From the IMG/VR virus record IMGVR_UViG_3300025669_000181, positions 1 to 24,899 of that record: 24,899 nt of DNA; one strand, given 5' to 3'. This document shows positions 2,569 to 24,128 of this stretch, piece by piece. A model generated the notes under the pieces. It was not told the DNA's origin. It worked only from the letters and a program-made list of their open reading frames with translations, and did not search any database. Position 1 is the first letter of the stretch. Each line of letters starts with the position of its first letter. The DNA comes from a virus. A program made the translations under genes and the position numbers.

Positions 2569-3516
2569 ATGGAAACATACAGCGGCGAAAAGTTTGAAAC
2601 TAAAAAGGAATTATTTGAATTTTTATTTAAAAATAAGGATAGTTTGATTGCACAAAAAAAAGCAAATTTAAAGATTGCTGATTGTATTTCATTCGCGCCA
2701 ACTATTTCAATGTTGAAAAAAGATACTGAAAAAGCAAACGAACCTATTGATGTTTCATTTTTGGATGAATTAAAAGTCATTGTTATCATCAACACCACGA
2801 ATTTAATGGATTCTCATTTTGATGTTCATATCCGTGGACTTTGGAATAAAAGTTTAAAAGAGAATAAAATGCTTATGCACCTTCAGGAGCATAAGATGGA
2901 ATTTTCTCATATTATTTCAGAGGGTAAAAATTTAAAAGCTTACGTAAAAGATTATACATGGAATGAATTGGGATTTGATTTTGAAGGCAAAACTCAAGCA
3001 TTAGTTTTTGAATCTATAATTGAGAAAAAGCGCAATAAAAAGATGTTCGAACAATATGCCAATGGTTGGGTAAAAAATCATTCCGTTGGTATGCGATATG
3101 TAAAATATGATATGGCAATAAACGATGAAGATTACCCAAATGAATTTATTGCATGGGAAAAATATTATCCAGAGATTGCCAATAAAAAAGCAGTTGATGA
3201 CAAAGGTTACTTCTGGTATGTCCTGGAAGCTAAAGCGATTGAAGGGAGTGCCGTCCCTTTAGGTAGCAATTTTGTTACACCAACTTTAGAAAATAATAAA
3301 AGTGAGCCGCCAAAACAAGGCACTCATGCCAAAATAGTTGAGCCGCCAAAACAAGGCACTCATGCCAAAATAGTTGAGCCGTTAAAACAAGGCACTCATG
3401 CCAAAATAGTTGAGCCGTTAAAACAAGGCACTCATGCCAAAATAGTTGAGCCGTTAAAACAAGGCACTCAAAAAGAGATGTGGAAATTTTTAATTAAGAA
3501 CATTAAATTATCATAA
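2569..3516 (+). CDS. Prohead maturation protease (HK97-type) with tandem-repeat C-terminus
   Basis: This is a likely serine protease of the HK97/herpesvirus assemblin fold that trims the capsid protein's scaffold-like N-terminus after prohead assembly. Residues that fit the family are His108 in LQEHKMEF, Ser172 in NHSVGM (the conserved 'SvG' block), and EGSAVPLGSN at 225-234, equivalent to the 'E.S.V..pa' strand near the end of the catalytic domain. DSHFDVHIRGLW near residue 82 matches the early 'D...D.i.pG.f' segment. The catalytic part ends around residue 240. Residues 246-300 are five near-identical copies of a 12-residue unit, EP(P/L)KQGTHAKIV, followed by a short basic tail. The gene sits between portal and capsid, the expected place. 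The assignment rests on motif pattern and position. Confidence 0.83.
   Translation: METYSGEKFETKKELFEFLFKNKDSLIAQKKANLKIADCISFAPTISMLKKDTEKANEPIDVSFLDELKVIVIINTTNLMDSHFDVHIRGLWNKSLKENKMLMHLQEHKMEFSHIISEGKNLKAYVKDYTWNELGFDFEGKTQALVFESIIEKKRNKKMFEQYANGWVKNHSVGMRYVKYDMAINDEDYPNEFIAWEKYYPEIANKKAVDDKGYFWYVLEAKAIEGSAVPLGSNFVTPTLENNKSEPPKQGTHAKIVEPPKQGTHAKIVEPLKQGTHAKIVEPLKQGTHAKIVEPLKQGTQKEMWKFLIKNIKLS
3304..3470 (+). repeat. 36-bp tandem repeat, 4 full copies plus a partial fifth, inside the protease gene
   Basis: Units start at 3304, 3340, 3376, 3412 and 3448, the last keeping only its first 23 bases. Units 1 and 2 are identical to each other and carry CCA at the third codon. Units 3 and 4 are identical and carry TTA; unit 5 also has TTA. 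Everything else is invariant, including silent positions. Only the protease frame is open through the array; the other two + frames hit stops in every unit. Each unit contains a small GGCA-CTCA-TGCC hairpin. Confidence 0.95.
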
Positions 3517-3518
3517 AA

Positions 3519-4883
3519 ATGGAAGAGAAAGAGCAAAAGGAATTGCTGGAAAAAGTAAATTCCGAAGCAATAAACGCGGTAACAAAATTCAAAGACGAGT
3601 TTAAGGACATCGCGATAAAAGCAGCCGAAGGTAAAATGACTAAGGGTGAAGTTGATGTTGAACTGGATAAATTGGAGAAAAATGCTAAGGATTTTACTAA
3701 TTTACAACTTAAAGAATTGAGTGATGAATTGGGGAAAGTGAAAAAGTCAATGCAGGATCAAGGTTCTAAATTAAAAGCATTAAGCGAAAACCCGAAATCT
3801 AAAGTTAATGAAAAATTTGGATTTGGAACTATTTTTCGTAAATCACTTGAACGTGATGGATTAATTGACGAAGTTGTTATTGATCAAATTACCGGGAAAA
3901 AAACCACAATAATTAAAGGGTGGGAGCGTAACGATATTAAGATTCAAACAAAGACTGCTATTGATATGACAACTGCTTTAACTCAGTTGCCGGGGTCTAC
4001 GCCAGGGACATCAATTGGAGCTTTGACCGATTATGCGATGCAGGAGGTGCAGATTAACATAAATAAAGACCAGCATGTAAACGTAATTTTCCCTACAGAT
4101 CCAATTAGTGGTGAGTATATGGGAGTTATGGTTGATTATTCCTATGTTGATGGTGCAGATGTTACAGTTGAGGGTGCTGCTCCAGGTCAATCATCTTTAA
4201 AATTAAAGTCTATCGAGTATAAAGTACTTGATTATTCTGCTTTAATTCGTGTTCATAAAAATATGCTTAAAGACGTTCCAAGGCTTGAAAGTAAATTGAA
4301 TCGAATTGTACCGGATTCAATTTTAGGTGCTCTGGATGATGCTGTATTTTCAACAACAGGGGACAATTCAGCAACAGCATGGGGTTTATATTATGCAGGT
4401 AATTACGTTGCATTTTCTTATGATGCTTCTCTAGGTGATAAAGTTGCAAATGCCACTATTATCAATTTGATTGGTAAAATGGTTTTACAGGCAGAATTGT
4501 TAAATCAGGATGTCAATAGTGTTGTTTTAAACCCTGCTCTTTTAAACGGGTTGCGGCATGAAAAAGACGCATTAGGAAATTCACTTAGTGATCGTAATAT
4601 AGTGTTTAATTCAATGGGGCAAGTAGTTTCGATTTGGGGGTTGAATGTCAAATTGACAAAAAAACAAAATGTCAATTATGCAACTGTATTATGGGATCAA
4701 GCTGCTGAAATTGGTATTTTAGAAGATATACAATTTGAAATCGGTACTGATGCAGATGATTTTTCAAAACGATTTCGAACTATACTTTATGTGATGAGAG
4801 CTGCATTTGGAGTTTCAAAACCGGGTGCTATTATATTTTCTGATGATGTTGCTACAGATTTAGATTCAATAACTGCTGTATAA
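3519..4883 (+). CDS. Major capsid protein, HK97 fold, with N-terminal delta-like domain
   Basis: This is the shell protein of the head. It has 454 residues. The first 100 or so are charged, Lys/Glu-rich and helical (for example LLEKVNSEAINAV), resembling the delta/scaffold domain that the prohead protease removes in HK97. After a low-complexity linker (SENPKSKVNEKFGFG) the mature fold begins; the stretch ending VPRLESKLNRIVPD and the following helices fit the spine and A-domain of HK97 coat proteins, and the C-terminus (DADDFSKRFRTILYVMRAAFGVSKPGAI) is the classic closing strand, where coat proteins read 'f....v.~r~~~r~~~~v..p.A'. It follows the protease with two bases between. Its stop overlaps the next start as TAATG. 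Confidence 0.92.
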   Translation: MEEKEQKELLEKVNSEAINAVTKFKDEFKDIAIKAAEGKMTKGEVDVELDKLEKNAKDFTNLQLKELSDELGKVKKSMQDQGSKLKALSENPKSKVNEKFGFGTIFRKSLERDGLIDEVVIDQITGKKTTIIKGWERNDIKIQTKTAIDMTTALTQLPGSTPGTSIGALTDYAMQEVQININKDQHVNVIFPTDPISGEYMGVMVDYSYVDGADVTVEGAAPGQSSLKLKSIEYKVLDYSALIRVHKNMLKDVPRLESKLNRIVPDSILGALDDAVFSTTGDNSATAWGLYYAGNYVAFSYDASLGDKVANATIINLIGKMVLQAELLNQDVNSVVLNPALLNGLRHEKDALGNSLSDRNIVFNSMGQVVSIWGLNVKLTKKQNVNYATVLWDQAAEIGILEDIQFEIGTDADDFSKRFRTILYVMRAAFGVSKPGAIIFSDDVATDLDSITAV

Positions 4884-6589
4884 TGAAAAGGTTAATTATA
4901 TTAATGATCATACTAATTACCGCAGCGGTAATTAGTATGGCAGCGGATCGAGATAATTTAATCATAAAATATGGGATGACTGAATTATCAAGAGATGTTT
5001 CATTAAATGCCAGTGATACTACGAATACAAGTGAAACAACAACTTTTACGATTATAAATCGGCAGAGGTATGCTCAAAATCAAACATTCACAGTTGGGTT
5101 GGAAGATATAAGTGGCACGCCGTCGGTAGTGATTACTGCCTACGGTAAAGTCACATCCGCTGGTTCATGGGTAGCAATTGGTAGCGCGATTACTTGGACA
5201 AGTGACTCGGATGATGGGGACATTACATCAACCACACCAATAAATTATAATTATTTAAAAGTTGAATTTGTCGCGAGCGGGGCAACACAACAGACGTTAA
5301 TTGATGAATTTGAGGTTAAAACGTCGAATGCTTTCGATATTCCTGCTAATAGTGGAACGTTAACAGTTTCGCGGGCAACATCGGGAACGGTGACTATCAC
5401 TAGTGCTGATGACGATGCCAACGCGGCTTTGACTTTGGTGGCTGGTGGCACGGGGGCGTTAACCCTTGGAGATAGTGGAAGTACAACCGCAGTTACTTCT
5501 AGTGATTGGGGGATAAGTGCGACTGGCGTACAGACAGGAATGGGAACTATATCTTCTGGAAAAGTATCAAGTTCAGCGGGTGTTGACTTGGGGACTTCTC
5601 AGGCTTTGACAGGTACAACCGCGTTAACAATTGGCGCGGGAACTGAAACGGTTGCAGTGAATTCCAGTGATTGGGATATTGACGCAACAGGCAACATGTC
5701 AGGAATAGGAACGATTGGAATGAATGACAGGTTAACTGTTACACACGCAACATCAACAGATGTCTCTGCATTGCCGGTTTATCTTTCAGAAACATTAAGT
5801 GCTGATTTTGGTGACGCTTCTGCACCGGCTTATGGGATGACTGTTTATTCTAAAATTGAAGGTGCAAACTTAGCCGCAACCGATGCTTATGAATCTGCCC
5901 TGACCGGGTTATATGGGATTACCGGAACTAATGCGAGTGTATATCCAAAGGCTGGGGTTTTGGCGTGGATTGCAGATAATACAACAACTGCCGATGGTGC
6001 TTTTGTTGCCTTAATTGATGGTGATACCCAGGTTACACAAGCCGGAGCAGCTTATGCAGTCAGGAATCTCAACTCAACCCCTACGAGTGGATTTGGTTAC
6101 GGTTTAGATTTATATAGTGCTGCAATTGGTATTTATGATGCAGTTGAATATAGGACTGCTGATGTGAGGTTTGTTAACGGTGAAACATTTGACAATTCAC
6201 TTGATAAAAATATTATATCAAATGGTAATTTTATCATTCAAACACCTTCGCCAAATGCGATAAATTCAACGGATGCAATAACGGCGGCTCAAATGTTGGG
6301 CGGTGTTATTACTTCGACATCAGGCGCAGCGACTGCATTGACCACTCCTACAGCTACGGCAATAATGGCACTTATCCCAAACGGGGGACGCGGAACTACT
6401 TTTGATTTAATAATTGATAATAGTGCAGGTTCAAGTACGATTACACTGACATTGGACGGTAGTATTTCAGTAAATACTCCAGCTATAACAGGGGGGGACG
6501 CTTTGACAGTATCGACTGCCAACACAGTTGGCTTGTTTAGATTTTATTTTGTCAGTGGAACGGCTGCAAAAGTATTTAGGATTTATTAA
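4883..6589 (+). CDS. Beta-rich virion protein with signal peptide, probable head decoration or fibre protein
   Basis: The 568-aa product starts with a clear Sec-type signal sequence: MKR, a hydrophobic run over about residues 4-18, then an Ala-rich likely cleavage site (SMA-A near residues 18-21). The rest is Ser/Thr/Gly-rich and predicted to be mostly beta strand. Residues 22-150 look like one beta-sandwich. A repeated module with SSDWGISATG near residue 206 and SSDWDIDATG near 261 follows, each ending in a GTI strand. A domain with alternating G-Y and A-V blocks comes next. The C-terminal 100 residues (ATALTTPTATAIMALIPNGG...) resemble a domain that I know from many uncultured-phage capsid-associated proteins. 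Position right after the capsid gene favours a head decoration or head-fibre role. The signal peptide is unexpected for such a protein. Function is inferred. Confidence 0.5.
   Translation: MKRLIILMIILITAAVISMAADRDNLIIKYGMTELSRDVSLNASDTTNTSETTTFTIINRQRYAQNQTFTVGLEDISGTPSVVITAYGKVTSAGSWVAIGSAITWTSDSDDGDITSTTPINYNYLKVEFVASGATQQTLIDEFEVKTSNAFDIPANSGTLTVSRATSGTVTITSADDDANAALTLVAGGTGALTLGDSGSTTAVTSSDWGISATGVQTGMGTISSGKVSSSAGVDLGTSQALTGTTALTIGAGTETVAVNSSDWDIDATGNMSGIGTIGMNDRLTVTHATSTDVSALPVYLSETLSADFGDASAPAYGMTVYSKIEGANLAATDAYESALTGLYGITGTNASVYPKAGVLAWIADNTTTADGAFVALIDGDTQVTQAGAAYAVRNLNSTPTSGFGYGLDLYSAAIGIYDAVEYRTADVRFVNGETFDNSLDKNIISNGNFIIQTPSPNAINSTDAITAAQMLGGVITSTSGAATALTTPTATAIMALIPNGGRGTTFDLIIDNSAGSSTITLTLDGSISVNTPAITGGDALTVSTANTVGLFRFYFVSGTAAKVFRIY
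4909..4939 (+). repeat. Perfect 15-bp inverted repeat within signal-peptide codons after the capsid gene
   Basis: The left arm catactaattaccgc (4909-4923), a single central base, and the right arm gcggtaattagtatg (4925-4939) are exact reverse complements. As RNA it would form a 14-bp stem with a three-base loop, 26 nt after the capsid stop codon and starting at codon 9 of the next gene. No T-run follows, so it is not a standard intrinsic terminator. It may instead block 3' exonuclease, slow ribosomes, or bind a dimeric protein. Confidence 0.75.
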
Positions 6590-6590
6590 C

Positions 6591-6857
6591 ATGGAAAAAA
6601 TATCAAGTTTAAAAGCGAAAGTAAAAGGCAACGGGTCGATCGTAAAAGGTAAACTTGCAGAAGTTTTCATAAAAATCGGAATTGCTGAAAAGATTGAAGA
6701 CACGCCCGATGCTTGGAAAGAGAAACCTATTAACGCAAAACAAACAGCTGAATTAATTACAGAATGTGAAACTGTTAAGGATTTGAAAGAATACGAAACT
6801 GACACAAGACAGGTAGTTAAAGCAGCTTTCAATAAAAGGTTAAAAGAATTGAAATGA
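6591..6857 (+). CDS. Small phage protein of unknown function (88 aa)
   Basis: I chose ATG 6591, directly after the stop of the preceding gene (6589), giving MEKISSLKAKVKGNGS; an earlier in-frame ATG at 6528 would lie deep in the upstream gene. The product is small, Lys/Glu-rich and helical. Its C-terminal half (AELITECETVKDLKEYE...RQVVKAAFNKRLKEL) has the pattern of a short helical hairpin domain common at the ends of small head-region proteins in Bacteroidota phages: a Leu/Ile helix, 'E.R..V..A...R..eL'. It overlaps the next gene as ATGA. Its place between capsid/decoration and connector suggests a head completion role, but I do not know one. Confidence 0.65.
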   Translation: MEKISSLKAKVKGNGSIVKGKLAEVFIKIGIAEKIEDTPDAWKEKPINAKQTAELITECETVKDLKEYETDTRQVVKAAFNKRLKELK

Positions 6858-16029: not shown

Positions 16030-17174
16030 TAATACCGATCGCAAATAGTATTCGATTCAGGAAAGTTGACAGCAACTATACAAACATTGAAAATACTTTA
16101 ATGAAAAACCAAGCGGGTTTTAATCGTTTATATTATCAATATTGCCAGAGATTCCTTACAACGGAAACAAGGAAGATCCAAATAAGAGCGACCTCTGACA
16201 CCCTGCCAACGGTAACGGCTTATCATGCAGATAATACTACAACGGCAATAACTCCAACGGGATCTGCATACGTTTCGAGATACGATACTACAGGAGACGG
16301 AAATTATGATTTATGGTTTTTTGAATTTGACGTTTTAATGTCAAGTTTTTTAACCTCAACTTATATAACAGCGGTGCAAGACGGCGAAACGTGGATAAGC
16401 GAACAATTTAAGGGCGATGCTGATTTATTAACAGAATTGAATGCAGGCGAAGCAATACAAATAGAATATTACAATTTTGATAATGCTTTTTTAATGGATT
16501 ATTCCACTGGGATAGTTGGCGTTTTTTATATCGGCGGTTATATTCCAGACTTTGAAGTCGGGGGTGAGTTTTCCGTATTCGATAATCAAACAGAAAAAAC
16601 AATATTAAAAAGTTCAGCTTTTAAAATAGCTAAATTTGTGAGCGAGAGCGTTCCAATATGGATATACGAATTATTGTCTATTGCATCAAGGATGGATAAT
16701 TTTACAGTAAACGGAATTTCATATATTACAGAAGATGCGCCGGAAATAAAACAACAAGGGCAAACCAATTTATATGAATTAACTTTGAGTTTGACGGATA
16801 AAGAATATTTGGGTGTAAACTCAGACGATACAGGATTTGACATAGAAAGCATAATTGAAACCGAAGGCATGAGCAACTTACAACAATTAGCACAAAGCGG
16901 GAATATTCAGTTTGATATTCCGGCAGGCTGGCAGGTACACACTTTTACAGCATTAAAAACAGCAGGTGTAACAGGTTCGGTAAAAGCAGGGACTACAATC
17001 GGAGCGCAAGACATTGTCTATCCGTTGACTTTAGCAGATGCCAATCCCGCAACGGTAAGTTTACATTTTGATAAAAGCATGAGCGCGGCGAGTGTTTTAT
17101 ATGTTAACATTTCAGGAGCTGGCGTAACAGCTGATATTTATATAATGTTATTAAGAAATATACAAGCGACATGA
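16026..17174 (+). CDS. Baseplate-associated tail protein (382 aa)
   Basis: This gene overlaps the preceding tail gene as ATGA and the following fibre gene by the same kind of overlap. Residues 1-270 form a beta-rich domain starting IIPIANSIRFRKVDSNYTNI, with WFFEFDVLM and IWIYELLSIASRMDNFTVNG as strands; this pairs in gene order with the 706-aa protein in related Bacteroidota phages. A linker (MSNLQQLAQSG) leads to a C-terminal beta-sandwich of about 100 residues: FDIPAGWQVHTFTALKTAG, then VKAGTTIGAQDIVYPLTLA, which looks like a small module often fused to tail and fibre proteins. It probably forms part of the tail tip between hub and fibres. No catalytic motif is seen. Confidence 0.6.
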   Translation: MIIPIANSIRFRKVDSNYTNIENTLMKNQAGFNRLYYQYCQRFLTTETRKIQIRATSDTLPTVTAYHADNTTTAITPTGSAYVSRYDTTGDGNYDLWFFEFDVLMSSFLTSTYITAVQDGETWISEQFKGDADLLTELNAGEAIQIEYYNFDNAFLMDYSTGIVGVFYIGGYIPDFEVGGEFSVFDNQTEKTILKSSAFKIAKFVSESVPIWIYELLSIASRMDNFTVNGISYITEDAPEIKQQGQTNLYELTLSLTDKEYLGVNSDDTGFDIESIIETEGMSNLQQLAQSGNIQFDIPAGWQVHTFTALKTAGVTGSVKAGTTIGAQDIVYPLTLADANPATVSLHFDKSMSAASVLYVNISGAGVTADIYIMLLRNIQAT

Positions 17175-19507
17175 AAAAGATAATTTTATTTATAGGTTTT
17201 ATTTTTTGTTTGACCGTTGCTTTTGGGCAACAAACAAGAGTGGATACCAGGCAATTAATTGTTCGCGATTCTATTAATTTAGTTGGTGAATGGATTAGTA
17301 TTTCAGGTGCAACGAATGACCAGGTAATCGGGCGTGTTGATGGCAGGTGGGTAAATACTACATTGGGGGATAGAAAAGACAGCGTATTTGTAACAATTTC
17401 GGCAGATACATTATTCATCGGAACGGACACAATTATCAGTAATCTATTAACTGATTTTGATACAACTGGTTTTAGTTTGACCATTTCGCAGGTTATTGAT
17501 TTGGCAGATTCTTTATCAACACTCTGGACGGCAATAGACTTAAATACCGCTCGTGACAGTTTAGATAATTTGGCAGATGTACACGTTACAGGGGCGGCGG
17601 TTGACGACATACTTTCTTTCGATGGGATGAATTGGGTACATAGTTCTGGAATAACCCTCTCCGGCGGTATTGGGATTACTTTTTATATGGACGACACCGA
17701 AATAATAGGAACAGGCGTTAATAGCGATTATCCTATAAAAACACTTTCAAAAGTACCTGTATTAACAGCAGAAGATGTTGATGCAATCCCGGTAACCAAT
17801 AACACTGTTCTATATGGTGCTTACCTTTATGATTTTGCCCTTGGTGGGGTTGTTATCGATGCCGGGGACTGGAGTTTTTTGACTTACGCATCGGTTAACT
17901 CTGTTGGAGGAGGCAGGGAATCGAGTATTACACGGAATATTTATATAGTCGAAGTTGGCAGTACAATTACCACAACGGGAACGGGAACAAGCCGAACAGC
18001 CACGGCGGCTAGTGGAACGCCATTTGTCACTGGTGACGCTTCCGCAACAAATACAGATGCGGGATATTTACAAACACCGCAAGGGCTTTATCAAATTACT
18101 GGATATACTTCACCAACGATTGTAACCGTCTTAGTACCTACGACTTACACAAATGAAAGCGGCGTTACTTTTCAAACTTATAAAAAGCAGTTCGGTTCAT
18201 CTACGGGGGAAATTACATCAATTGGAACGAACTACACTCTATATTCAGTAAACGCGGTACATGCTGAAATAATTATTAATAATACTGATAAATTAGCAGA
18301 ATTGGTTTTCGGTATTTCGAACAATACAACCACTGTTTCATTTGTTCATAACGGGAATTTACATTATAGTCATTTCGTTACACCGTTGGCAGTTGCCCAC
18401 AATGATTTAAAAGGGTTAAATGCTGGTGACAGCTACGAACATTTGACACAGGCGCAAAAAAATATAAATCTTAATTTTGCGGATTCTGTTTCTTTGAATT
18501 CCGCAGTTGCTGCCAACACGGGCAAAGACACAACAGGAATATATCACGCAAACCGAACTGATTTAAATTTGGTTTCAGGTTCAAATACAGGCGATCAATC
18601 GCTAACAGGATATTTACAAGACAATGTTGGAATTGCAGGCGGAACTACTTTAATCGGTGGCACGAGTGTAACGGATACATTAGTACTCCAGGGAACTTCT
18701 GGAAATGGTACATTAACCTCACCAGCCGTCCGAGTGGATGTTGGAAATGACGGGGCTACCGAAGCAATTACTGTTTTGAATAACGGGAAGGTGGGCATCG
18801 GGACGACGAGTCCAGATTATCTATTACATGTAATAGGTGATATGGAACTTGAAGGTGTTTTATTAGTAGATGAATATATTTATCATAATGATGATTTTCA
18901 TACAAATATACGGTTTGTTTCTGACCAAATAATATTTAATGCTGGCGGTGTTAGTATGCTTGGGTTAGCCGAAGGCACTCAAGATGTATTCAGAATAAAT
19001 CCTAATTTAGTAGATATAGATTTTAATGTTTTTAGTAGTTTAAGTTCGGGAGCATTATTTGTAGAAGGAAGTTCAGGCAACGTCGGCATCGGTACAATCG
19101 CCCCCACAGCGGCACTTCACATAAAAGCCGGAACAGCAACAGCCAGTACCGCCCCTTTAAAATTCACAAGTGGAACATTAAACACAACACCAGAAGCGGG
19201 GGCGGTTGAATTTTTAACAGATGCTTATTATGGAACTATAACAACAGCAGCAGAAAGGAAACAATTTGCTTTTACAAGCGATATTGCAACCAATATTTAT
19301 AACGAAGTGCCAACGGGGTTAATAAATAGTTCAAACGATACTTATACAACAGCCAGCACTTTTGTAACCAATTCAACACAAACATATTTGAACGGAATAA
19401 GGCAAAAATTAAACGTTCATTATATCGAAAGTGGAAGTACAATTGTATTTCAGGCGAGTTATATCCCACAAACCGGGGACATTTTATTTCTCGATTATCA
19501 AAATTAA
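17171..19507 (+). CDS. Modular tail fibre protein with signal peptide (778 aa)
   Basis: The N-terminus (MKKIILFIGFIFCLTVAFG, then QQTRVD) is a strong signal peptide with Gln at the predicted +1 position. The body is a string of fibre modules: HNDLKGLNAGDSYEHLTQAQ (about 412-431, a known tail-fibre motif), NTGKDTTGIYHANR, SNTGDQSLTGYL, then NDGATEAITVLNNGKVGIGT and NVGIGTIAPTAALHIKAG of the 'VGIGTtsP...L.v' type. The last 70 residues (TYLNGIRQKLNVHYIESGST to DYQN) match a widespread fibre-tip domain: 'N..F......~vylNGirq..g.~Y...g.~i.f...p..gd.l...Y'. It is likely a receptor-contact or tip-scaffold protein. Why it needs a signal peptide is unclear. Confidence 0.7.
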   Translation: MKKIILFIGFIFCLTVAFGQQTRVDTRQLIVRDSINLVGEWISISGATNDQVIGRVDGRWVNTTLGDRKDSVFVTISADTLFIGTDTIISNLLTDFDTTGFSLTISQVIDLADSLSTLWTAIDLNTARDSLDNLADVHVTGAAVDDILSFDGMNWVHSSGITLSGGIGITFYMDDTEIIGTGVNSDYPIKTLSKVPVLTAEDVDAIPVTNNTVLYGAYLYDFALGGVVIDAGDWSFLTYASVNSVGGGRESSITRNIYIVEVGSTITTTGTGTSRTATAASGTPFVTGDASATNTDAGYLQTPQGLYQITGYTSPTIVTVLVPTTYTNESGVTFQTYKKQFGSSTGEITSIGTNYTLYSVNAVHAEIIINNTDKLAELVFGISNNTTTVSFVHNGNLHYSHFVTPLAVAHNDLKGLNAGDSYEHLTQAQKNINLNFADSVSLNSAVAANTGKDTTGIYHANRTDLNLVSGSNTGDQSLTGYLQDNVGIAGGTTLIGGTSVTDTLVLQGTSGNGTLTSPAVRVDVGNDGATEAITVLNNGKVGIGTTSPDYLLHVIGDMELEGVLLVDEYIYHNDDFHTNIRFVSDQIIFNAGGVSMLGLAEGTQDVFRINPNLVDIDFNVFSSLSSGALFVEGSSGNVGIGTIAPTAALHIKAGTATASTAPLKFTSGTLNTTPEAGAVEFLTDAYYGTITTAAERKQFAFTSDIATNIYNEVPTGLINSSNDTYTTASTFVTNSTQTYLNGIRQKLNVHYIESGSTIVFQASYIPQTGDILFLDYQN

Positions 19508-19512
19508 AAATT

Positions 19513-19914
19513 ATGAAAACGTTAATTATTTTAGTATTATTATTTTTCAGCTTCGCGGCAAACAGGCAGGAGAATTATAAAATTTCCCGTTATGAACAAA
19601 GTTCTATACAATTATTTATTTGCATAAACCACATCGATAAACCGGTGTATGTTGAACATTTTTTCACCGAAGGCGAAAGGTCAACAGCGGATTCGATAAA
19701 ATTAACTATTGAAGGGTTGCTGGCGGATTTGGAAATTAAAGCAGATGAATATTTCGCACCGGAAATTATAACTAAAAAAGAATCTAAGGGAATGGTATTT
19801 TCAAAAGAGAATATTGTAGTAATAAAAGCCAGGAAATTATTGAAAATTGACAGCTTAAAAATTATACCGAAAGATATTAAAATTACAACAGAAATTTTAA
19901 AAATAGAAAAATGA
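19513..19914 (+). CDS. Small protein with signal peptide, unknown (133 aa)
   Basis: The N-terminus MKTLIILVLLFFSFAANRQ is a signal peptide; cleavage could fall after the Phe-Ala or Ala-Ala near residues 15-16. The mature part is about 115 residues, with a probable mixed strand and helix fold (IQLFICINHIDKPVYVEHFF; then helix TADSIKLTIEGLLADLEIKA) and a Lys-rich C-terminus. I recognise no family, no lipobox and no catalytic motif. It sits between two fibre genes, five bases after one stop and overlapping the next start as ATGA. Possible roles are a fibre assembly factor or a periplasmic/envelope protein; neither is supported beyond location. Confidence 0.6.
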   Translation: MKTLIILVLLFFSFAANRQENYKISRYEQSSIQLFICINHIDKPVYVEHFFTEGERSTADSIKLTIEGLLADLEIKADEYFAPEIITKKESKGMVFSKENIVVIKARKLLKIDSLKIIPKDIKITTEILKIEK

Positions 19915-22900
19915 AAAAATTAATATTTTTACTTTTATTATTTGTTTCAATAAATAGTTACGGTCAATTAATCCGACAAACGCAAACAGAGGTATTGGAT
20001 ACGTTAATTACTCAGATTATTGATGCTAATTGGCAAACATTTATATCGAATAATACTGCCGTTTTAATAAATACCGGCAAAGACACAACTGGAATTTATC
20101 ATTCAAACCGTGCTATTTTAGACGCTACAACGGCGAGTTTTACAACAACAATTTCATCTGCAATAAGTGCTAACACTGGCAAAGACACAACGGGTATATA
20201 TCATTCAAATCGAACAGCGTTAAATAGTGTTTCCGGAACAAATACCGGGGACCAGGATTTGAGTACTTTCCTTTTAAAAGCAAATTTCGGGGATAGTTTA
20301 CAAGCACATTTTTTAATAGACTTGGATAGTGCCGGGTTTATAATCGACACTACACAGGTCAAAGATTTATTATTGTTCGTACAGAACAACGGCGGCACGG
20401 CTTCCATGGTTTATCCCGGTGCAGGGGTTGCTGTTTCTACAAGTACGGCGTGGGGGACTTCGTTAACAAATACAACCGTTGGAAGCAATTTGTTAGAACT
20501 TCCAAATCCCGATGCAAACACTTTTTTAAAATTAAATTCCAACAATACGGTTTCTGCCTTAGATTTTAGAGATTTTCAGGCAGCTATTGGAATACAAGCG
20601 CATGGAAGGTCAATCGTTGGGCAAATACCAGCGGCGGGGATTACTTTTTTGAAAATGAATAATAACGTTGCATCATGGCGTTCGGCAGCTTTATTTTTAA
20701 GTGATATTGGCGCGGGCGATGTTTCATTTACAGATACCGTTTCGATTATCGCAACAAAGTACGATATTGATACAATTAGCGCGGCGGAGTTAACACTTCA
20801 AGAGGTTACCGATTTTGGGGCAACCTCGACAAATGATGTAACTGTTAATAGTATTGACATTGCAAAAGACCAATATTATAAAATTAATGCAATACCTGCT
20901 TTTACTATTAATGAAGGTACTGCAACAGGAACGTATCCTAATACATACGGGGGTCAAGGTGCCGGAAATGATGCAGCAAATAGTCAAACATCTTACGGAC
21001 AAAATGCAGGAAACAATGCCACGGGTAAAAGAAATACACTAGGGGGGTCAGCTACTGGAATCAACAGCACAGGAGATGATTCAGACTTTTGGGCGTACCA
21101 AGCAGGTCGGGATAACACAGGGCACAAAGTATCGGCACGAGGTACAAGGGCAGGAAAAGATAACACAGGGGATAACAGTGTCTTTGATGGATACGAAGCT
21201 GGCGAAGGGAACACCTTGGATAATCAATATATTTTAAAACATTCCGCCGCAAATGCAAACCCATTAATAACCGGGGATTTTTTAAGCAGGAATTTATGGT
21301 TTGGGAATTCTATTTACATAGCAGAACAGGCAACGCCGGATGCAGACAGCACGGGACAATTCCAGTTATGGGTAAAAAATACAACTCCAAATGAATTGTG
21401 GGGTACAGATGACGCGGGATCTGATTTTCAATTAGGAACAGCCAGCGCGACTAATTTAAGCCTTGGAACTGTCACAGCTACGACAATGGATGTAAATTCC
21501 AGTGCTGGGACAAATGCAACATTGATTGCGGCAGATACCGATGATGCGGGTCTTTTGACAGCAGCGGGGTTTGATGCCATTGCTGCGAACACTGGCAAAG
21601 ACACGACAGGAATTTATCATTCAAACCGTGCTATTTTAGACGCTACAACTGCAAGTTTTACAACAACTTTATCCTCAGAAATAAGTGCAAATACAAGTAA
21701 AACAACAAACGCGACACACACCGGGCAAGTGACAGGTGCAACGGTGTTAACGTTAGATAAAACGGCAATAACCGATCAGACATTAGCGACTGCCACAAGT
21801 GCAGATACTGTTTTGATAATTGATGCAACGGACGGATTGACTAAAAAAGCTGCTATTGCTGATTTTGCCAGTGCAGGGGGAGATATGTCGGCAGCTGTTT
21901 ACGACCCCGCGACAATTACAGAACAGTTAATAGGGTTAACAGCGATTCAAACATTAACAAATAAAACGCTTACAACCCCAACAATAGGAGATTTTACAAA
22001 TGCCACACACGCACATACGGCTAATGCAAGCGGTGGGACTTTGGCGGCTGCTGCTATTTCTGATTTTGATACAGAGGTGGGCAATAATACAGCGGTTGCA
22101 GCCAATACCGGCAAAGATACAACCGGAATTTATCACAGTAACCGTAGTATTTTAGATGCCACGACCGCGAGTTTTACAACAACAATTTCTTCTGCAATAA
22201 GTGCAAACACTGGGAAAGACACCACAGGGATTTATCACAGTAATCGAAGTATTTTAGACGCGACAACTGCTAGTTTCACGACAACTTTATCCTCAGAAAT
22301 AAGTGCAAATACAAGTAAAACAACAAACGCGACACATACTGGAGAGGTAACAGGTTCGGGATCTTTGACATTAGATGAAAGTGCAATTGAAAATCAGCCA
22401 TTAGTAACAATAGTAGGTTTAGATACTGTTTTAATAAGAGATGCAACGGACGGGAATTTTAAAAAAGGTTTAGTTTCCGATATTGTCGCAATCGGTACAA
22501 GCCCGACATTTGCAGATATTTCAGGATATTCAACAACCGAAGCAGATTATACAATTCAAATGGAATCAGATGTTGATATGTTTATAAAAGGAGCTGGCCC
22601 CGTTACGAATTGGAAGTTTGAAGAATCAACAGCTACTTTATTTGGTAGTATCTTTTCAGGTACCGACTTTTATCTCGAAAGTTCGGCAACGAAAATTGAA
22701 AAAGATGGTTCTGGTAATATGCTGTTTACCGATGCTGTGACAGGTGCAAAAACGCTTGCAGAATTATCAGCGGCAGGCGGCACCCCTGGGGGATCTAATA
22801 CGCAAATTCAATATAATAATGGAGGTGCTTTTGGTGGAAGTGTTAATTTAACATTTGACGGTACGGATGTAACAGTGCAAGGAGATGTAACTGTTGCAAA

Positions 22901-24128
22901 TATTGCCTACGGTGAAGGGTGGGACGGTAATAATAAAGCAACAACACAAAATTCAATTTTTGATAAATTGGAAGCTGTTTTATTAACAATTCCACCGATT
23001 AATTCGCCATTTATAACAAGGACTTTAACATCCGCCTTAACAAATGAACAGGCTTTGAGTGAGTTGGCTACTGGTTTTATGAAGTCCGATGGTTCTACTG
23101 GAATTGTAACTACACAAGCGCAAATTGCTTTAGCTTCCGATGTATCGGGAAATTTACCGGTTGCAAATCTTAATTCTGGAACGAGTGCAAGCGGTTCTAC
23201 ATTTTGGCGCGGGGACGGGATTTGGGCAACACCAGCGGGGAGTGGTGATTTTTTAGCAGACGGAACTATTCCAATGACAGGAAATCTAAATTTAGCTGGC
23301 AATAATTTAATTGGGGGAACGGCAACAAGTTCAGACCTGAATTTTAAAACAACTACAGGCGAAGGGACATCGGGTGCAGATATGCACTTTTTAACAGGAA
23401 ATGACGGAGCTACCGAAGCAATGACAATTTTAAACGATGGAAAAGTGGGGATAAATGAAGCCGCGCCAGAATATGAACTTGAGATAAATGGTGATTTAGG
23501 TACATCTGGAAGTATTTTTAAAAATGTCGATAATTCATCTATAATAACATCTGGAGGAACATCGGTCGCCACTGGAGCTTATTCAATATTCAGTGGTTCA
23601 ACTCGGACAAATCAAAAAGGGAATATTGCTTTTTGGGTAAACACAGCAGAAGCTTACGTTGGAGGTAATGACCATATGATCTCTTTTGGGCATTATAACG
23701 GAGCATCGACATGGAGCAAAAAATTAATAATTAGTAAAGACGGATATGTCGGAGTTTTAAATGAAACCCCATCGGTTGAATTCGATGTGACGGGGGCGGG
23801 ATTATTTTCGAGTACTGTTACAGCTACGAATTTTATATTAAGTTCAGATAGGAGATTAAAGGGAAATATTAAAAAAATCAAAAATCTTAATTGGGTCGAT
23901 AATGTAAAATTCAAATCCTTTTCGATGAAGAATGATAAAACTCATTCACTGAGATACGGGATTATTGCTCAGGACATTAAAAAGATTAATCCTGAAATGG
24001 TAACTACAAATAAGGACGGAATGATGGCAGTTAAATATATTGATGTTTTAATTGCTAAAGTAGCGAGACAGGATGAAATTATAAACAATTTAATCAAACG
24101 GATTGAAAAATTGGAAGATGAAAAATAA
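19911..24128 (+). CDS. Long tail fibre with signal peptide and C-terminal S74 chaperone domain (1405 aa)
   Basis: The N-terminus MKKLIFLLLLFVSINSYG, then QLIRQT, is a signal peptide obeying the Bacteroidota Q-rule. Several copies of a 34-residue module beginning NTGKDTTGIYHSNR follow. Residues about 346-440 carry Gly-Ala-Asn repeats of about 16 residues (YADA-head-like: QAGRDNTG, RAGKDNTG). Then come fibre modules THTGEVTGSGSLTLDESAI, NTQIQYNNGGAFGGS and NDGATEAMTILNDGKVGI. The last 94 residues are an S74 intramolecular chaperone: SDRRLK at 1312-1317 carries the catalytic Ser1312/Lys1317 pair, then YGIIAQDIKKINPEMV and KYIDVLIAKVARQ with a closing coiled coil. It trimerises the fibre and then cuts itself off just before Ser1312. 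Likely a main receptor-binding fibre. Confidence 0.8.
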   Translation: MKKLIFLLLLFVSINSYGQLIRQTQTEVLDTLITQIIDANWQTFISNNTAVLINTGKDTTGIYHSNRAILDATTASFTTTISSAISANTGKDTTGIYHSNRTALNSVSGTNTGDQDLSTFLLKANFGDSLQAHFLIDLDSAGFIIDTTQVKDLLLFVQNNGGTASMVYPGAGVAVSTSTAWGTSLTNTTVGSNLLELPNPDANTFLKLNSNNTVSALDFRDFQAAIGIQAHGRSIVGQIPAAGITFLKMNNNVASWRSAALFLSDIGAGDVSFTDTVSIIATKYDIDTISAAELTLQEVTDFGATSTNDVTVNSIDIAKDQYYKINAIPAFTINEGTATGTYPNTYGGQGAGNDAANSQTSYGQNAGNNATGKRNTLGGSATGINSTGDDSDFWAYQAGRDNTGHKVSARGTRAGKDNTGDNSVFDGYEAGEGNTLDNQYILKHSAANANPLITGDFLSRNLWFGNSIYIAEQATPDADSTGQFQLWVKNTTPNELWGTDDAGSDFQLGTASATNLSLGTVTATTMDVNSSAGTNATLIAADTDDAGLLTAAGFDAIAANTGKDTTGIYHSNRAILDATTASFTTTLSSEISANTSKTTNATHTGQVTGATVLTLDKTAITDQTLATATSADTVLIIDATDGLTKKAAIADFASAGGDMSAAVYDPATITEQLIGLTAIQTLTNKTLTTPTIGDFTNATHAHTANASGGTLAAAAISDFDTEVGNNTAVAANTGKDTTGIYHSNRSILDATTASFTTTISSAISANTGKDTTGIYHSNRSILDATTASFTTTLSSEISANTSKTTNATHTGEVTGSGSLTLDESAIENQPLVTIVGLDTVLIRDATDGNFKKGLVSDIVAIGTSPTFADISGYSTTEADYTIQMESDVDMFIKGAGPVTNWKFEESTATLFGSIFSGTDFYLESSATKIEKDGSGNMLFTDAVTGAKTLAELSAAGGTPGGSNTQIQYNNGGAFGGSVNLTFDGTDVTVQGDVTVANIAYGEGWDGNNKATTQNSIFDKLEAVLLTIPPINSPFITRTLTSALTNEQALSELATGFMKSDGSTGIVTTQAQIALASDVSGNLPVANLNSGTSASGSTFWRGDGIWATPAGSGDFLADGTIPMTGNLNLAGNNLIGGTATSSDLNFKTTTGEGTSGADMHFLTGNDGATEAMTILNDGKVGINEAAPEYELEINGDLGTSGSIFKNVDNSSIITSGGTSVATGAYSIFSGSTRTNQKGNIAFWVNTAEAYVGGNDHMISFGHYNGASTWSKKLIISKDGYVGVLNETPSVEFDVTGAGLFSSTVTATNFILSSDRRLKGNIKKIKNLNWVDNVKFKSFSMKNDKTHSLRYGIIAQDIKKINPEMVTTNKDGMMAVKYIDVLIAKVARQDEIINNLIKRIEKLEDEK
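20070..22307 (+). repeat. Dispersed and tandem fibre modules (34-aa unit)
   Basis: A 102-bp unit encoding NTGKDTTGIYHSNR followed by 'xxLDATTASFTTT' and 'SS.ISA' starts at 20070, 20172 (only the first 14 residues kept), 21588, 22104 and 22206. A sixth copy of the 14-residue head lies at 18514-18555 in the other fibre gene. The pairs 20070/20172 and 22104/22206 are in tandem at exactly 102 bp. After units at 21588 and 22206 the sequence continues into a shared NTSKTTNATHTG block. Confidence 0.85.
21663..21718 (+). repeat. 56-bp exact direct repeat, copy 1 (copy 2 at 22281-22336)
   Basis: The segment from acaactttatcctcagaa to gcgacaca is identical at 21663-21718 and 22281-22336, while flanking codons for the same amino acids differ at silent sites. 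That mixture of identical and diverged stretches points to recent gene conversion or recombination inside the fibre gene, not only selection on protein sequence. Confidence 0.85.

Follow-up and report, generated by a model that had tools for sequence, protein, structure and literature searches.

The window, which is the whole 24,899-nt stretch of viral DNA analysed here, contains an HK97-type major capsid protein gene (3519-4883, + strand; phrog_10, PF05065), followed by a gene encoding 568 aa (4883-6589, + strand). The start codon of the second gene (ATG, 4883-4885, + strand) overlaps the capsid stop codon (TAATG). The N-terminus of its product is signal-peptide-like (MKRLIILMIILITAAVISMAA, called by eye), the middle is a beta-sandwich at approximately residues 20-150, and the C-terminal part is variable and fibre-like. 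The 140-aa domain was predicted as a beta-sandwich with high confidence (pLDDT 93), and its weak fold matches were carbohydrate-binding, CUB, and phage fibre domains. The protein had no Pfam or PHROG match. A small gene (6591-6857, + strand) lies after the signal-peptide gene. Secretion signals are unusual on phage virion genes. Three further genes in the tail/fibre region of the window (17171-19507, 19513-19914, and 19911-24128) also begin in a signal-peptide-like manner, and one of them ends in a Peptidase_S74 chaperone domain. Two sets of repeats were also seen. A 36-bp tandem repeat (GTHAKIVEPLKQ, 4.7 copies, 98% identical) occupies 3303-3470, at the end of ORF 2569-3516, and adjoins the capsid gene. 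Repeat units of 102 bp (KDTTGIYHSNRAILDATTASFTTT) occur in the long fibre gene (ORF 19911-24128), at 22113-22309 and elsewhere.

An earlier note on this DNA had described a perfect palindrome just after the capsid stop, within the signal-peptide codons, and this was confirmed. The inverted repeat at 4909-4939 is exact (15+1+15), with arm 1 (CATACTAATTACCGC, 4909-4923) and arm 2 (GCGGTAATTAGTATG, 4925-4939) complementary around A4924. No other short-spaced inverted repeat in the window is perfectly complementary over such a length, and no second copy of the arm was found in the window with up to 3 mismatches allowed. The palindrome begins 25 nt past the capsid stop codon (TAA, 4881-4883) and lies within codons 9-19 (I-I-L-I-T-A-A-V-I-S-M) of the signal-peptide gene. 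An RNA loop needs at least 3 nt, so the corresponding mRNA hairpin, H1, was drawn as a 15-bp stem (4908-4922 with 4926-4940) closed by the loop CAG (4923-4925). H1 spans 33 nt on the + strand (4908-4940), and its stem consists of 14 Watson-Crick pairs and an outer U·G pair (4908·4940). Relative to gene 4883-6589, H1 occupies +26 to +58 and the DNA palindrome +27 to +57; the base of H1 begins 25 nt downstream of the A of the ATG at 4883.

The local RNA fold was more stable than expected (z = -3.5 in a 121-nt neighbourhood), and none of 200 shuffled sequences was equally stable. The earlier note held that exact pairing over these codons was unlikely without selection and that a T-run was lacking. 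Both statements are borne out, as none of 500 synonymous recodings of the peptide reached the helix score of H1, and no T-run was present downstream of it. For an identical copy in a second locus (L034), scored in a second scoring window, 1 of 200 synonymous recodings reached its score. Hydrophobic codons do permit pairing in this register, and random recodings had an average helix score of 6-8, so that chance or a by-product of signal-peptide composition deserves consideration. Against this stand the recoding tests, the covariation described below for the main and held-out sets, and the finding that the other signal-peptide genes of the window carry no such hairpin. The probability of a chance origin is negligible.

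A search of viral contigs found the exact palindrome in only two near-identical contigs, and homology through the protein was therefore needed. Homologues were collected by protein and capsid searches in IMG/VR, which gave approximately 30 distinct usable ones. Most of them form a hairpin of different sequence in these codons, and their mature domains are mostly 40-86% identical. The alignment register was ungapped, with a 3-nt loop, third codon positions pairing with third positions, and first positions pairing with second positions. The compensatory changes in the two arms that the earlier note had asked for among related phages were found in abundance. In 17 sequences, 91.8% of the cells were paired, compared with 29-56% when the partner was slid by 1-3 nt. 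Doubly changed, compensating cells numbered 62, compared with 19.5 after shuffling, and 0 of 500 shuffles reached this number. RNAalifold recovered the same 15 pairs. The held-out set of 14 sequences behaved similarly: 86.7% of the cells were paired (26-52% when slid), with 49 double changes compared with 14.6 after shuffling (0/500). Disjoint sister pairs remove most shared ancestry. Among 15 such nearest-neighbour pairs, 39 double changes kept the pairing and 9 broke it, while slid registers of the same pairs gave 4 kept versus 23 broken and 6 kept versus 30 broken. The pairs between codon positions 1 and 2 held 30 of the 62 double changes in the 17-sequence set, which means that amino acids change along with the stem. 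Covariation thus supports one secondary structure across diverged homologues, as would be expected of a conserved cis-regulatory RNA element. The hairpin is selected on top of the protein code, across diverse uncultivated tailed phages, and the proposal of an mRNA hairpin under selection is upheld by the relatives.

A perfect inverted repeat such as that in the window could also be a DNA-level palindrome, that is, a site for a dimeric regulator, a recombinase site, or a cruciform. The mismatches at third codon positions speak against it. A G·U pair in the sense strand corresponds to an A·C mismatch on the other strand and breaks the symmetry in duplex DNA. Among the synonymous third-position pairs, where codon choice is least constrained, 142 of 155 cells were paired, and there were 18 G·U cells and 1 A·C cell, where shuffling gave 33 and 19. 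A DNA palindrome predicts that, once composition is taken into account, G·T and A·C would be affected equally. This indicates that the selected object is the sense-strand mRNA and not the DNA palindrome. In addition, the sequence is not conserved between phages. The DNA site for a dimeric regulator that had been offered in the earlier note is contradicted by these data, and a DNA-level explanation is extremely unlikely.

The hairpin is specific to its gene. With a covariance model, each related record gave a single copy, on the sense strand, and no convincing hit at any other place; the held-out locus L026 was recovered as well. No Rfam match above the gathering threshold was found near the window site or in ten relatives. 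Early-ORF hairpins were then compared with synonymous recoding at 489 gene starts over all loci, in 12 protein clusters of at least 5 members. Only two clusters clearly exceeded the synonymous expectation. For the signal-peptide gene, the mean z was 2.38, with 57% at p ≤ 0.05; for the small gene next to it, where the excess is seen in some lineages, the values were 1.79 and 41%. The portal, capsid, connector, and other clusters had mean z values of -0.2 to 0.9. The hairpin was present in 21 of 29 long forms of the signal-peptide gene and in 7 of 21 short forms of 145-155 aa (p = 0.009). The hairpin is weak in a few of the long forms (L054, L055, and L091). In certain short forms (L111, L125, L152, L093, and L130), it sits in a different register, which suggests that the hairpin as such is selected. 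The second early-ORF hairpin, H2, lies in the small gene of relatives (e.g., GTTGCAACCCTGATG/CATTGGGGTTGCAAC) and shows some covariation. H2-bearing small genes occur in L099 (4910-5086), L051 (3451-3777), L091 (5063-5557), L098 (4298-4519), L082, and L104 (1665-1865). The window copy of the small gene is without H2, and in L111, L125, L141, and L152 the small-gene hairpin is in another register. Scans of bacterial genomes with the protein of the signal-peptide gene and with the capsid yielded no relative, and the comparison therefore includes neither host genomes nor prophages. When the capsid of a relative was used as the query, the closest cultured capsids were those of Flavobacterium phages, with 23-25% identity.

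The position of the hairpin was measured from both neighbouring landmarks. Its loop centre lies at +40.3 from its own ATG, with an SD of 3.2 nt, and 38-107 nt past the capsid stop, with an SD of 18.5 nt. Among carriers, the gap from the capsid stop to the next ATG ranges from -1 to 62 nt, and in most it is -1 to 20 nt. As the hairpin lies inside the ORF, part of the constancy of its spacing from the ATG is inherited. These measurements bear on the idea that the hairpin is a barrier to decay: once the downstream portion of the polycistronic mRNA had been degraded, 3'-to-5' exonucleases would stop at it, and the capsid mRNA would persist (segmental stability). The capsid gene is the upstream gene in nearly all loci, hairpin scores after capsid stops have a median of 10.8 compared with 6.35 after other genes (p = 7e-15), and the lack of a T-run also fits. 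Strong hairpins without a T-run lie between the capsid and the next gene in L006 (5243-5315; = L078) and L089, where the in-ORF hairpin is weak or absent, and L100 and L102 have long-loop intergenic stems without a T-run in addition to the in-ORF hairpin. In the first 20 loci, the combination of a weak in-ORF hairpin and an intergenic one made a capsid 3'-end hairpin seem compelling. Loci without the signal-peptide gene also fed this reading; in several of them, the gene in question proved to be the small gene, which carries a hairpin itself.

However, it is the distance to the capsid stop that varies and not the distance to the ATG. In L043, the gene lies two genes away from the capsid and keeps its hairpin (with two mismatches), and no hairpin of comparable strength follows the capsid there. 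Nor does one follow the capsid in L122, L141, L146, and L129, in which the next gene is short; a hairpin is thus not present at the capsid 3' end whatever the next gene. An analogous hairpin also occurs in the small gene after the signal-peptide gene, and translating ribosomes would melt a hairpin placed inside an ORF. For these reasons, the capsid 3'-stability hairpin suggested by the earlier note is not favoured, and we consider that a decay barrier is an unlikely function of H1. Because of the post-capsid intergenic hairpins, a capsid 3'-end element is still conceivable as a distinct feature in addition to H1. In another locus, L153 (10124-13543), the gene order is capsid, an 81-aa gene, connector, and the signal-peptide gene with its hairpin.

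Stems scoring at least 10 were followed by a T fraction of 0.16 in the next 12 nt, and the stem followed by a T-run that characterizes an intrinsic terminator was not found. Phage ctLpZ231 (L157) has a GC-rich hairpin followed by TTTATT right after its capsid gene (3750-3800), which is terminator-like and unlike H1. Occlusion of the start codon was not seen: the start region is as open as in other genes, with an opening energy for -18 to +15 of 8.0 compared with 7.5 kcal/mol (p = 0.18). The ATG in the 3' arm was rejected as an internal in-frame start, many relatives having ATT or ATA there. Ribosomal frameshifting from the capsid gene was rejected because the gene starts at a codon of its own and the hairpin is unchanged even where the gap reaches 62 nt.

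Two further roles were also considered. An RNase III-type processing site between the capsid and the next gene would agree with the long stem and with its repetition where the following two genes meet in some phages. However, most stems measure 11-15 bp, are rich in G·U pairs, and are shorter than classical sites, and cleavage would destroy the gene's own message; such a role is very unlikely. In the other case, the hairpin would be an operator at which a phage protein (the capsid protein, the product of the same gene, or a small protein that binds RNA) represses translation. In most members the register is constant and the loop tight, which is consistent with an operator, as is a weak motif at the base of the stem (AUrCUGr / yCAGyAU). 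On the other hand, the loop and most of the stem vary freely, related genes have hairpins of another register or sequence (L111, L093, and L130), and there is no candidate binder. We regard a protein-bound operator as improbable. The coat-protein operator hairpins of the RNA phages MS2 and Qbeta lie near the start codon, control translation, and need a specific loop and bulge. H1 resembles them as a virion-gene mRNA hairpin near a start codon, but its sequence is free and it is placed after the start codon, which it does not cover.

The anchoring to the ATG, the retention on relocation, the lack of a T-run, and the open start favour cis translational control over a capsid 3'-stability hairpin, a terminator, or a DNA operator. 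We suggest, with slightly less than even confidence, that H1 is a putative throttle, acting in cis to control the translation of its own gene. The signal-peptide gene presumably shares a transcript with the capsid gene, whose expression is very high. By the general value for the ribosome footprint, the base of the stem, at +20 to +30 from the AUG, would lie just beyond the initiating ribosome, and initiation would be left free. Each ribosome would then reach the helix while decoding approximately codons 4-6, where pausing may easily abort synthesis. As a result, the output of the secreted or surface, carbohydrate-binding-like protein could be lowered or paced relative to that of the capsid protein. 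A ribosome pause in early signal-peptide synthesis is possible and is close to this translational reading. The effect could also have the opposite sign, with the downstream hairpin favouring initiation. Against a throttle, ribosomes unwind hairpins, and the precision of a 3-nt loop in one register may not be needed for it.

Studies in E. coli have shown that early-elongation stalls and drop-off at codons 3-5 set the yield (PMC6920384), and that the ORFs sharing an operon mRNA are each translated with an efficiency of their own, which is linked to structure (Burkhardt et al. 2017, PMC5318159). H1 is similar to these effects in that features within an ORF set the output of one cistron and early codons are sensitive. 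The reported effects are diffuse or peptide-driven and belong to E. coli, whereas H1 is a single covarying hairpin in a fixed place. Ribosome termination structures (RTS) are structures after stop codons that limit re-initiation (Chemla et al. 2020, PMC7518266). They resemble H1 as stable mRNA structures within an operon that are proposed to limit the translation of the next cistron. RTS lie shortly after a stop codon, while the centre of the hairpin, at 38-107 nt past the capsid stop, is tied to the next ATG. RTS are also generic, with no tie to a gene family. RTS are enriched at intergenic distances of at least 25 nt and depleted at shorter gaps and overlaps (PMC7518266), a spacing that most H1 carriers, with gaps of -1 to 20 nt, do not have. 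H1 is therefore not counted as an RTS, as it occurs at short gaps or overlaps and follows the next start.

Segmental mRNA stability hairpins, such as those of Rhodobacter puf and the malE-malF REP, are intercistronic and lie where a highly expressed gene adjoins a weakly expressed one. H1 shares the boundary position; the difference is that it is coding and follows the downstream gene. H1 is of a kind that is already known, an in-ORF cis-regulatory mRNA hairpin, and what is unusual is its strong covariation, its signal-peptide position, and its effect on the protein sequence. To our knowledge, covarying conserved RNA structures within coding sequence have rarely been shown for double-stranded DNA phages. 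No published precedent for signal-peptide or capsid-junction hairpins in phages was found in the literature covered, which was incomplete.

At 33 nt, the element is small; it is specific to its gene and coincides with the coding sequence of a functional peptide. Because approximately half of the compensatory changes are at codon positions 1 and 2 and mostly alter amino acids, the RNA and protein constraints are experimentally separable. It is conceivable, if rather doubtful, that these hairpins make up a novel type of dual-coding RNA element, with signal-peptide residues shaped by a translational-control hairpin that is reused at post-capsid gene boundaries in a large group of uncultivated phages and possibly bound by a phage regulator setting the ratio of capsid to decoration protein. 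If H1 does set the dose of the capsid-adjacent protein, virion stoichiometry would be tunable within the operon, with no promoter or terminator between the genes.
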